Below are positions 19,907-22,407 of a DNA stretch of 48,929 nt, piece by piece. The notes under the pieces are model-generated. The model was given only the letters and a program-made list of their open reading frames with translations. It was not told where the DNA came from and searched no databases. Position numbers and translations under genes: made by a program. Origin of the DNA: Candidatus Saccharimonadota bacterium (lineage in GTDB: Bacteria; Patescibacteriota; Saccharimonadia; CAILAD01; BJGX01); contig BJGX01000003.1 in the NCBI GenBank assembly GCA_014191035.1, forward strand, positions 1-48,929, written 5' to 3'. Position 1 is the first letter of the stretch. Each line of letters opens with the position of its first letter.

Positions 19907-19935
19907 TTGACAAAAAATAAAACTTAGGCTATAAT
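19907..19935 (+). promoter_or_regulatory. Consensus sigma70 promoter
   Basis: TTGACA - 17 nt - TATAAT. Confidence 0.9.
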
Positions 19936-19941
19936 CTTTTT

Positions 19942-20309
19942 GTTGTTCGACGACTATGACCCTTAGGAGGGCCTTATGGGTGGCGTATAGCCAACCGTCC
20001 CCTCTGGGGGAGTCGTTGGGGCCTGGGGGGCTCGTAGGCCCCCCAGGTTACCCGGCTTCGGGTGCAACATAGAAGAAGGGAAGAAGGATGTCTGGATACT
20101 GATATCCTGTAAGAAGAGTGAAAGCTCTATTCCTTGAACAGCGTCGATTTGTGTGTCTGAATAAGACGCTAATATCGACTATTTACCCCGCACAGTTTCT
20201 TAGCTGAGTGGGGTGGCACATGGCCGGGGGAGGGCGTAAAAACCCTTTCCCGGCCAGCCAAACCTCTTAATAAGTCACTATTTGATAACACCTAAAAGGG
20301 TGTTTTTTT
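19942..20309 (+). ncRNA. Unidentified large structured ncRNA (~370 nt)
   Basis: Between a consensus promoter and a terminator; no convincing ORF. Stems: TTCGACGACT/AGTCGTTGGG, CCTGGGGGGC/GCCCCCCAGG, ACCCG/CGGGT, GAGT-GAAA-GCTC, CCCC..GGGG, GGCCGGG..CCCGGCC. Confidence 0.8.
20288..20309 (+). terminator. Rho-independent terminator
   Basis: ACACC-TAAAA-GGGTGT followed by TTTTTTG. Confidence 0.85.
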
Positions 20310-20406
20310 GTTGTATTTTTTCATTTATTTTAAATTATAAAACAATAAAATATATCTATTTAACACATATAATAAGCTAATTATATAAATAAACTGCCAA
20401 AAAGTG

Positions 20407-20435
20407 TTGACAAAAAATATAATCTATGATATCAT
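20407..20435 (+). promoter_or_regulatory. Sigma70 promoter of the structured tmRNA operon
   Basis: TTGACA - 17 nt - TATCAT, followed by hairpins GTCAG..CTGAC and GCCGG-TTCG-CCGGC. Confidence 0.85.
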
Positions 20436-20532
20436 ACTTCACGTTGTCAGAGAGTGTTAAAGCTCACTGACATAAATTCGCACCCAAAAAACGCCGGTTC
20501 GCCGGCCCAAGTCACCAAAAGGAGGTGATTGA

Positions 20533-20742
20533 ATGAAGCGTGACCACCGAATCCCAGACCAGCCCCAGAAGTTCCGAATGGACATCTGGCTGGTCGAAGT
20601 CAAGGAGACTGGAGAACCCATTGTGGTGCTGAACAAGACGTTCATGGAGCTCAACACTCTCATGAATGAGGAGTTCGGTATCAACGGATGGGAAATCCAT
20701 GATCGGGAATCGACCGGCATGCTGACCGCCCAGGCGGGTTAG
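20533..20742 (+). CDS. 69-aa hypothetical protein (ORF1)
   Basis: AAAGGAGGTGAT SD before ATG: MKRDHRIPDQPQKFRMDIWLVEVKETGEPIVVLNKTFMELNTLMNEEFGINGWEIHDRESTGMLTAQAG. Confidence 0.75.
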   Translation: MKRDHRIPDQPQKFRMDIWLVEVKETGEPIVVLNKTFMELNTLMNEEFGINGWEIHDRESTGMLTAQAG

Positions 20743-20750
20743 TATGGCTT

Positions 20751-20804
20751 CGGGGCCTATGGAGAAGGCCTGGCAACAGAAGAGTCGCCTAGGCGATTTA
20801 CTCC
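20751..20804 (+). ncRNA. Pseudoknot module, copy 1 (8 nt after ORF1 stop)
   Basis: CGGGGCCTATGGAGAAGGCCTGGCAACAGAAG; stem1 GGCC/GGCC, loop GGAG pairs with CTCC 20801-20804, hairpin AGTCGCC/GGCGATT inserted. Confidence 0.75.
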
Positions 20805-20898
20805 TTTCGCAGTCAGGTAAAAAGACTTAAAAACCAAGCCAGCGAGATGTGGCTTTCAAGTGCTTACAGCACAGCTCGAAGAGGCGCTTATGCGTACT

Positions 20899-20957
20899 CG
20901 GGGCCTTTTATGGTAAGGCCCGGCAACACAAGCAATCGTTTTATGTTTGCAGCCCCG
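20899..20957 (+). ncRNA. Pseudoknot module, diverged copy
   Basis: CGGGGCCTTTTATGGTAAGGCCCGGCAACACAAG; stem1 GGGCC/GGCCC; possible stem2 ATGG/CCGT. Confidence 0.55.
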
Positions 20958-21045
20958 TCCGGGGGTAACCCCGGGTGAGTGATAGTCCGAGGATGTGTGT
21001 CCTCGCTGATGAGTCCAAAAGGACGAAACTTGCTTCAAACAAAAC
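20938..21045 (+). ncRNA. Hammerhead ribozyme, type III-like (core 20984-21030)
   Basis: AGTC | CGAGGA-TGTGTG-TCCTCG | CTGATGA | GTCC-AAAA-GGAC | GAAAC. Possible distal stem III GTTTT-AT-GTTTG with CAAAC-AAAAC. Predicted cleavage after C20987. Confidence 0.9.
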
Positions 21046-21131
21046 TTTCCCCGCGTTGGCAATTTTAATACGCCCTTATAGCGCATGTGTGGAAAGGTAT
21101 GTGGTTAGCACCATCAGATGCACATTTACAC

Positions 21132-21180
21132 CTGGAAGTCTCGTACTTCCAGCATAGGATCTAAAGAACTAGGTTTTATG
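21132..21180 (+). ncRNA. Tandem-hairpin module, diverged copy C (upstream of tmRNA)
   Basis: CTGGAAGT..ACTTCCAG then CATA...TAGGTTT-TATG. Confidence 0.5.
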
Positions 21181-21200
21181 CCGGAAGTACGCTTCCTAAC

Positions 21201-21554
21201 GGGGCCGAACGGTTTCGACACGGAGAAAGCAAAGTTTTTTCGCAACCCGAGTTGCTCAGACTCGTTAAACAGGGCAACCCTAATAAACGCCGCCTGATAG
21301 CACGTTTATTGTCATCCGCTCGGCGGAAAGGACGGGGCTTAGTCACTTAGCCTGGCAACAGAAAAGGGACTGACGGTAGCAAAGACTACTGACCTATCTG
21401 GAAAGACAGATTGACCTCAGCGAAAGTGCTGGCTGCTGGCCGAAAGGTACAGGCGACCCGTCGCCCTGACTGCAGATGAGTCAAAATACCGGGAATGGTT
21501 GTAGCGGAGTGCTTATGCGCTTCGTGGACGGGGGTTCGATTCCCCCCGGCTCCA
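21201..21554 (+). ncRNA. ssrA: tmRNA (transfer-messenger RNA)
   Basis: 5' GGGGCCGAACGGTTTCGACACGG and 3' GGACGGGGGTTCGATTCCCCCCGGCTCCA; 7-bp acceptor pairing including G-U; tag frame ends GCC GCC TGA TAG; several pseudoknots. CCA not encoded. Confidence 0.97.
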
Positions 21555-21606
21555 CATGGCCCCTTCTAGTGGGGTAGGCAGGGCTGGCTGTAGCCCATTT
21601 AGACGA

Positions 21607-21655
21607 CTTGCAGGTTGACTCTGCAAGGGCTCCTAGTTCGAAAGAACAAAGTCAA
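21607..21655 (+). ncRNA. H-type pseudoknot with inserted GNRA hairpin
   Basis: CTTGCAG-GTTGACT-CTGCAAG; loop TTGACT pairs with AGTCAA 21650-21655; inserted GTTC-GAAA-GAAC. Confidence 0.65.
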
Positions 21656-21713
21656 AAAGGAGAGAAAGACTAGACAAGCTTGCCGCTTGTGATTTCTCAC
21701 CAAACAGCACACC

Positions 21714-21780
21714 CTCGCGGGTTCCATTGGGACTCGCGAGATCCCACCAGAGTTTATGAATATTCGTAGGTTTTGGTGGG
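21714..21780 (+). ncRNA. Tandem-hairpin module, copy A (upstream of ORF2)
   Basis: 12-bp hairpin CTCGCGGGTTCC..GGGACTCGCGAG, then CCCACCA-GAGTTTATGAATATTCGTAGGTTT-TGGTGGG. Confidence 0.7.
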
Positions 21781-21835
21781 GAAAACTTCCTCAGCGGTGG
21801 CAGCCGTCTCGAACTCTCGAAAGGAGGTGAGAAAT

Positions 21836-22180
21836 ATGCACAAGATCAAGTTGTTCATGGCTATGGTCGTGGTCGCCGTCGGGGTTCTCCTGACTGGCTG
21901 TGGCAATTCTGCACAGCAGATCGCCGACGACTTCCCCTGCTCCCAGAGCATGAAGACGTCGACCACGGCCGGCCTGGACCTGATTGTGGAGAGCACGTTC
22001 CCGCGTTGGTACGTGTCCAACTCCCGGTCCTTCTTCGGCGAGTCCTACGACTTCAAGAAGGAGTGGCGCCGTCAGATCGTGATTCGTTCGGGAGTTTCCG
22101 AACCAATCGTGGTCGACACGGAACTGAAGGTGCCTGCAAGGTGCTCGAAGTCCGACGAAGCCAAGGCCAAGTTGAACTGA
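21836..22180 (+). CDS. Small putative lipoprotein, 114 aa (ORF2)
   Basis: AAAGGAGGTGAG SD; N-terminus MHKIKLFMAMVVVAVGVLLTGCGNSA has a lipobox-like LTGC. Confidence 0.8.
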   Translation: MHKIKLFMAMVVVAVGVLLTGCGNSAQQIADDFPCSQSMKTSTTAGLDLIVESTFPRWYVSNSRSFFGESYDFKKEWRRQIVIRSGVSEPIVVDTELKVPARCSKSDEAKAKLN

Positions 22181-22187
22181 CTTAGAT

Positions 22188-22236
22188 CGGGGCCTATGGA
22201 GAAGGCCTGGCAACAGAAGTTACTAGCTAACACTCC
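22188..22236 (+). ncRNA. Pseudoknot module, copy 2 (7 nt after ORF2 stop)
   Basis: Exact 32-nt match to 20751-20782; GGAG pairs with CTCC 22233-22236; inserted hairpin GTTA..TAAC differs in sequence from copy 1. Confidence 0.75.
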
Positions 22237-22239
22237 CAC

Positions 22240-22311
22240 GCGCTTCTAGCTCAACGGTAGAGCACCGGACTTTTAATCCGTAGGTTCTGGGTTCGAATCC
22301 CAGGGGGCGCA
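22240..22311 (+). tRNA. tRNA-Lys (anticodon TTT)
   Basis: Acceptor GCGCTTC/GGGGCGC, anticodon loop CTTTTAA, T arm CTGGGTTCGAATCCCAG; CCA not encoded. Confidence 0.95.
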
Positions 22312-22314
22312 CTA

Positions 22315-22374
22315 TCCCATAAGCTTCGGCTTGTGGGACCACCAAAGTTTATTTAATAAAGTAGGTTTTGGTGG
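22315..22374 (+). ncRNA. Tandem-hairpin module, copy B (after tRNA-Lys)
   Basis: TCCCATAAGC-TTCG-GCTTGTGGGA, then CCACCA-AAGTTTATTTAATAAAGTAGGTTT-TGGTGG. Confidence 0.7.
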
Positions 22375-22380
22375 AACTTA

Positions 22381-22407
22381 AAAACCCCTCAGATGAGGGG
22401 TTTTTGC
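22381..22407 (+). terminator. Rho-independent terminator of the structured operon
   Basis: AAAACCCCTC-AGAT-GAGGGGTTTTTG. Confidence 0.88.

Follow-up and report, generated by a model that had tools for sequence, protein, structure and literature searches.

A conserved structured-RNA unit with a second tmRNA, a hammerhead ribozyme and tRNA-Lys in Patescibacteria, and the class of hammerhead-associated GC-rich units to which it belongs

Bacterial and phage tmRNAs (RF00023) combine a tRNA-like domain bearing an acceptor G-U pair with PK1, a tag frame and further pseudoknots. Hammerhead ribozymes flanking single genes in prophages are already known (PMC3088659); these type III ribozymes (RF00008) have an invariant core and covarying stems and are placed between short gene blocks. 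In phage tRNA/tmRNA clusters, short ORFs lie close to a tmRNA and to tRNAs without CCA, and GOLLD and ROOL are large structured phage RNAs associated with tRNAs. The known hosts of Saccharibacteria are Actinobacteria, and phages co-targeted by spacers of both groups have been reported (PMC10746230).

The locus described here resembles all of these RNA systems and departs from each. Its tmRNA has the tRNA-like domain, acceptor G-U pair and pseudoknots of the family, but is the second copy in its genome, has what we interpret as a two-codon tag, lacks an encoded CCA in a genome where no CCA-adding enzyme was found, and lies inside a hammerhead operon. The hammerheads of such units share the prophage core, covarying stems and placement, but sit 3′ of GC-rich genes in patescibacterial chromosomes and, here, are combined with a tmRNA and a tRNA. 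As in phage clusters, a tmRNA and a CCA-less tRNA lie near short ORFs, whereas this unit stands alone, spans 2 kb, has its own promoter and terminator, and contains repeated pseudoknot and hairpin modules. Like GOLLD and ROOL it is a large structured RNA with a tRNA, yet no Rfam match to these or similar large-RNA families was found in the region at E up to 10.

The window, by which we mean the whole 48,929-nt stretch analysed, lies on contig C3 of a 685-kb assembly (18 contigs, 94% complete). Its small size, the genes it contains and the composition of its class lead us to infer a patescibacterium, probably of the Saccharibacteria, so that the class name is an inference. The unit occupies 20407–22407, with all parts on the + strand. 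It opens with an AT-rich promoter, TTGACA-17-TATCAT (20407–20435; 11/12 consensus matches, with TG preceding the second hexamer), followed by 5′ leader hairpins (20444–20530; folding z −3.3) and ORF1, which encodes 69 aa with a GC3 of 0.74 and a strong Shine-Dalgarno site (20533–20742). Next come a pseudoknot module (copy 1, GGGGCC..GGCCUGGCAACAGAAG..CUCC, 20750–20812), whose core is common to four units and to viral tmRNAs, a diverged copy 2 (20906–20950), and a type III hammerhead (20977–21036) with a predicted cut after GUC, immediately 5′ of CGAGGAUGU. Module C, a long hairpin (21134–21196; z −7.4), precedes the tmRNA (21201–21556), which is followed by the two stacked hairpins of module A (21714–21781; z −5.9, with compensatory changes across four units) and by ORF2, encoding a lipoprotein-like protein of 114 aa with a GC3 of 0.82 and a AAAGGAGGTGA site (21836–22180). 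The unit closes with pseudoknot copy 3 (22187–22232), a tRNA-Lys(UUU) without encoded CCA (22240–22312; 70.5 bits, UUU-anticodon cloverleaf present), the two stacked hairpins of module B (22315–22375; z −8.6 jointly with the terminator) and a strong intrinsic terminator with a 12-pair stem (22379–22406). No internal + strand terminator was found within the unit by a consensus-type scan; promoter and terminator scans rest on consensus matches only.

All parts named in the original prediction (tmRNA, hammerhead, tRNA-Lys, two ORFs, repeated modules, one promoter and one terminator) were thus recovered. The 33-nt pseudoknot module occurs at both 20750 and 22187 without a single difference (100% identity), with a relative inside the tmRNA at 21332 and the diverged copy at ∼20906, and a CCACC..GGTGG module occurs at two sites (21744 and 22339). 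The claim that nearly every stretch forms hairpins held for the modules against dinucleotide shuffles (z −5.9 to −8.6), and the non-tmRNA stretches 20743–21200 and 21558–21835 gave z −4.7 and −4.6. One standalone pseudoknot copy folded no better than shuffles (z −0.06), which is expected because the folding method ignores pseudoknots; the standalone pseudoknots rest on comparison, not on folding energy. The predicted elevation in GC was also confirmed (0.53 within the unit vs 0.36 before and 0.41 after it).

The flanks carry a TrmB-like gene on one side and a phosphoesterase/truB/rpsO/pnp block on the other (gene names read by eye). These are housekeeping genes, and no prophage gene or integrase was recognised beside the unit in a non-exhaustive reading of the ORF list by eye. 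ORF1 has no convincing match in Pfam, NCBIfam or PHROG, protein searches with ORF1 and ORF2 against viral contigs and with ORF2 against phages returned no match, and the exact 31-nt module is absent from the viral contigs searched. Just upstream, at 19907–20310, lies another structured RNA gene, whose promoter matches the consensus perfectly (12/12; 19907–19935) and which has GC-rich hairpins and a terminator (20287–20304); it has no above-chance Rfam match, and none of the unit-bearing loci compared contains a relative.

The tmRNA of the unit (RF00023 at 21201–21557, 101.4 bits against a cut-off of 47, E 1.5e-38) is additional to the cell's own and of a foreign type, as the model match, alignment and tree show. 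A full-length tmRNA is present in 16 of 17 genomes of the order, and the ordinary one of this cell (C4:18455–18847) ends in CCA and carries the tag APAYAPAFA (ARAGORN); the two are 31% identical. In the tree, the unit tmRNA clusters with tmRNAs of GC-rich viral contigs (support 100/99). After PK1, the viral frame reads GCC AAC AAG CAG TTC GCT CTC GCC GCC TAA, a full tag, whereas the aligned place in the four units known to us reads GCC GCC/GCU UGA, with GCC-GCY-UGA kept in 4/4 at 11–12 nt past PK1 (GCC-GCC-UGA-UAG, ∼12 nt past PK1, in the window). We interpret this alignment as a tag reduced to two codons, Ala-Ala-stop. The alanine-identity G-U pair of the acceptor stem (GGGG...CUCC) is likewise present in all four. 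Among the 393 genomes searched, the short-tag tmRNA was confined to these four, and none of 2.9 million viral contigs contained its exact pattern. A genome search with the pattern gave 30 matches, two of which are known units (on G005 and G006 contigs); the other 28 belong to unrelated taxa and were judged chance matches from their titles alone.

Relatives of the whole unit were found by a DNA search of 13 family genomes, which recovered the tmRNA in two others, and by the tmRNA model, which added a fourth genome from the same taxonomic order. Four Patescibacteria genomes (that of the window, G005, G006 and G014) therefore bear the same unit type, at no fewer than three unrelated sites: beside the genes described above, upstream of a kinase-like gene in G005 and G006, and upstream of genes reading as rpmF and nusB in G014 (all by eye). 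The shared order is promoter, short ORF, pseudoknot module, hammerhead, structured RNA, tmRNA, hairpin module, ORF and terminator, with the hammerhead 0.8–1.4 kb upstream of the tmRNA in the relatives vs 0.2 kb in the window. All related loci have a GGCAACAGAA pseudoknot 5′ of the hammerhead and short ORFs near both ends. Hairpin modules of the CCACCAGAG..GGUGG type show compensatory changes in the relatives, and a stem of the upstream pseudoknots co-varies between G005 and G006 (CAAGAA/UUCUUG vs CGAGAAA/UUUCUCG). Both ORFs have homologues in the G014 unit, at 38% identity for ORF1 (L054:6234-6434; E 2e-11, GC3 0.70) and 26% over 100 aa for ORF2 (L054:8563-8895; E 9e-10, GC3 0.81), a divergence too large for useful dN/dS. 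The unit is thus real, conserved and present at several unrelated positions. In G006, contig C616 (L299, L040) of a 2.2-Mb assembly that probably mixes genomes carries another CCA-less tmRNA, whose tag reads GNTQYAMAA.

The prediction that the unit forms a single precursor cut into several RNAs is supported by sequence and synteny, because one promoter and one terminator enclose an embedded hammerhead and the same order recurs at unrelated sites in relatives; neither a single transcript nor cleavage has been demonstrated. The case that would have refuted it, relatives carrying this tmRNA alone with the neighbouring modules missing, was looked for, and the relatives did not refute the reading. 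What the prediction could not include is that the tmRNA is a second, foreign-type copy with an apparent two-codon tag, that the tRNA and tmRNA lack CCA, and that the unit is one of a widespread hammerhead class.

The missing CCA sets the tRNA-Lys and tmRNA of the unit apart. The genome has 40 distinct tRNA genes (ARAGORN on tRNA loci), 39 of which encode CCA, the tRNA-Lys of the unit being the sole exception; all four unit tmRNAs likewise lack it, whereas the ordinary tmRNA encodes it. The CCA-adding enzyme family PF01743 was not found in the window genome, in the unit-bearing G014 genome (99% complete) or in 270 of 283 class genomes at ≥ 95% completeness, and was present in 10/10 bacterial controls. 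PF12627 was also absent from the window genome, and the archaeal-type PF09249 was found in 0/17 genomes of the order, with positive controls. It is established tRNA biology that an RNA without CCA cannot be charged. Because CCA is not encoded and no CCA-adding enzyme was found, the tRNA-Lys and tmRNA of the unit cannot be finished in this cell by a known route. Three options follow: these RNAs never function as a tRNA and a tmRNA; there is an enzyme not yet known; or their completion takes place in another cell. The first option is disfavoured by the retained acceptor stem with its G-U pair, T-arm and normal UUU anticodon, the last kept in two units. Our strongest argument would fall if CCA were added by an enzyme of an unknown family or by one encoded in the 6% that the assembly lacks.

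Two other roles were rejected: the unit is not the only tRNA-Lys source of the genome, since Lys-UUU and Lys-CUU exist elsewhere in it, and it does not supply missing tRNAs for GC-rich codons, since the tRNA set of the genome is broad. A separate array in another genome (G008:C10; L012 1097-1576) places four CCA-less tRNAs in a GC-rich stretch 5′ of a trigger-factor-like gene; two have abnormal anticodon loops, one of them UACG. There, tRNA-like parts recur, yet some are not ordinary tRNAs.

The hammerhead of the window matches RF00008 at 20980–21034 with 41.9 bits (E 4e-7), just below the curated gathering cut-off of 48.5; most of its relatives also score below it. The full catalytic core, CUGANGA...GAAA, and the UH cleavage site are present, and stems I and II are strong. 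Stem III has only 3 contiguous pairs next to the core, perhaps with an AAGCAA/UUGCUU helix farther out, and is weaker than in most relatives, where at least 4 contiguous pairs occur in 75 of 77 loci. From its ribozyme core we infer that it would self-cleave, without cleavage data. All 77 loci retain an intact core and show covariation in stem III, whose positions 2 and 3 are paired at every locus (77/77; shuffle means 32.5 and 30.5, respectively).

These relatives define a wider class. RF00008 matches (E up to 1e-4) occur in 63 of 393 genomes of this Patescibacteria class, up to eight per genome, whereas none of the 14 control genomes has one; beyond the class, a phylum-wide sample added 18 genomes with a match. 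Often a GC-rich ORF precedes the hammerhead, with 40–250 nt between its stop codon and the ribozyme. Median GC3 is 0.72 for the nearest upstream ORF and 0.49 for the remaining ORFs at these loci (p 9e-14), and the upstream ORF has the higher value in 37 of 40 paired loci. Promoter-like sites scoring ≥ 10/12 precede 21/48 units vs 1/48 shuffles, and GC drops at the promoter and at the hammerhead. Shine-Dalgarno motifs are fivefold enriched in the start zones of unit ORFs relative to their bodies (12.2% vs 2.4%), and barely enriched in native genes (3.1% vs 1.7%). Units were selected by hammerhead matches only; ORF choice for the Shine-Dalgarno and promoter statistics, and in one survey behind the ORF spacing and protein content, favoured high GC3, a choice of which the GC3 test is free.

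The proteins encoded by these units are diverse (NUDIX, ThiF, TelA, Band 7, glycosyltransferases, GH113, and secreted and lipoprotein-like proteins), and 16 PHROG families were matched among 46 of them. One glycosyltransferase gene common to two units is 91% identical between two genome families, with a dN/dS of ∼0.13. On the basis of the PHROG matches and this shared gene, units do move. In about a dozen units (L162, L147, L148, L184 and others) the leader carries TGACAAGCAGACA and its reverse complement, TGTCTGCTTGTCA, lies just 5′ of the hammerhead; pairing of the two could conceivably close the message as a panhandle just before the cleavage site. Tandem hammerheads split by single GC-rich ORFs were seen at L147 13974-18330 and L133 5951-7889, with related ORFs repeating between them in the latter. 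The unit of the window is a member of this class of hammerhead-plus-GC-rich units, which is common in this Patescibacteria class. The unit class is probably undescribed: in the literature searched, which leaves out most subscription papers and preprints, we found no paper joining a hammerhead ribozyme with Saccharibacteria or the candidate phyla radiation, and none linking a CCA-adding enzyme with Saccharibacteria.

Absence of the hammerhead from phages can be rejected, as a bare type III core occurs in 46 IMG/VR contigs (L242–L287), in many directly after an intergenic hairpin. A hammerhead pattern with TA preceding the core gave 0 viral matches, no markedly GC-rich stretch precedes the viral hammerheads sampled, and Pfam searches of the viral contigs were uninformative as to an actinobacterial host.

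Our leading reading is that the RNAs made from the unit are destined for another cell, one of high GC. It is unproven and rests on judgement, with neither a computed probability nor an experiment behind it, and we consider it slightly more apt to be wrong than right. On this reading, the RNA polymerase of the patescibacterium would transcribe the unit from its AT-rich sigma-70 promoter, of which the sequence is shown and the activity inferred. The hammerhead would cut the precursor in two, giving the ORF1 mRNA a defined 3′ terminus and leaving the tmRNA, ORF2 and tRNA-Lys on the downstream product. These RNAs would be delivered, by an export route that has not been identified, to a high-GC host, for example the actinobacterium on which such epibionts live; that the host of this lineage is actinobacterial is itself an inference. 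There, RNase P and a CCA-adding enzyme may finish the tRNA and tmRNA, and the GC-rich messages may be translated from their Shine-Dalgarno sites. The tmRNA would free stalled ribosomes while adding almost no tag, which may protect tagged proteins or weaken the host's own rescue, although SmpB-dependent trans-translation is undemonstrated. A bolder version, which we infer and regard as no more than possible, is that epibionts make mRNA, tRNA and tmRNA for the host cytoplasm, the messages ending at a hammerhead and resembling the host in codon use, and the CCA-less RNAs being ones that only the host can finish.

Support for the host-directed reading comes from the recurrence of the same unit type in four genomes at unrelated sites, with no occurrence outside this group in the collections searched; from the absent CCA with no enzyme found, the viral-type second tmRNA and its conserved tag frame; and from the high GC3, Shine-Dalgarno enrichment, promoters, stem III covariation and glycosyltransferase dN/dS of the wider class. 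Against it, recently transferred phage genes would also be expected to show GC-rich ORFs, Shine-Dalgarno sites and a foreign tmRNA, and stem III of the window's own hammerhead is short.

The main rival, possible and ranked just below the host-directed reading, is a phage-derived mobile cassette: it would come from phages with tmRNA, tRNA and hammerheads, spread horizontally, and act in the infected cell or be decaying, with the missing CCA reflecting origin. It accounts for composition, tmRNA type and mobility, given that the tmRNA is nearest those of viral contigs, that the same hammerhead core is found in 46 of these and has a prophage precedent (PMC3088659), that spacers of Saccharibacteria and Actinobacteria co-target phages (PMC10746230), and that unit proteins match PHROG families and include a gene 91% identical in two families. 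However, no integrase or phage gene was recognised beside the window unit, the exact short-tag pattern is missing from the 2.9 million viral contigs, and the viral hammerheads sampled have no markedly GC-rich stretch ahead of them. The ORFs are still open, with high GC3, at 26–38% identity, and the units span from an AT-rich promoter to a hammerhead or terminator, unlike random fragments. The cassette explains neither these boundaries nor why, within the collections scanned, the unit is confined to these genomes.

It is less likely that the tmRNA and tRNA-Lys stay in the cell and never receive CCA, serving as decoys, as RNase P processing punctuation or as stabilising folds for the two mRNAs. 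The lack of a detected CCA-adding enzyme, the odd anticodon loops of the CCA-less tRNA-like array in G008 and the structured modules flanking both ORFs favour this view, but a mere fold needs no conserved alanine acceptor end with a G-U pair, T-arm and Ala-Ala-stop frame, nor does it explain the normal UUU anticodon retained in two units or why the ORFs have high GC3 and Shine-Dalgarno sites. The view that independent genes merely happen to be neighbours, or that the assembly is chimeric, draws only on the promoter and terminator calls being consensus matches; it is contradicted by synteny, with the same order at different sites in four genomes, and by housekeeping genes on both flanks of the window unit, and is all but excluded.

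The demonstrated part alone is a conserved operon uniting a tmRNA, a hammerhead and a tRNA, and it belongs to a class in ultra-small bacteria that appears to be unreported. Were the host-directed reading right, RNA would be passed between bacteria, and charged and translated in the recipient, a specific and testable account of the way in which epibionts manipulate their hosts despite tiny genomes.
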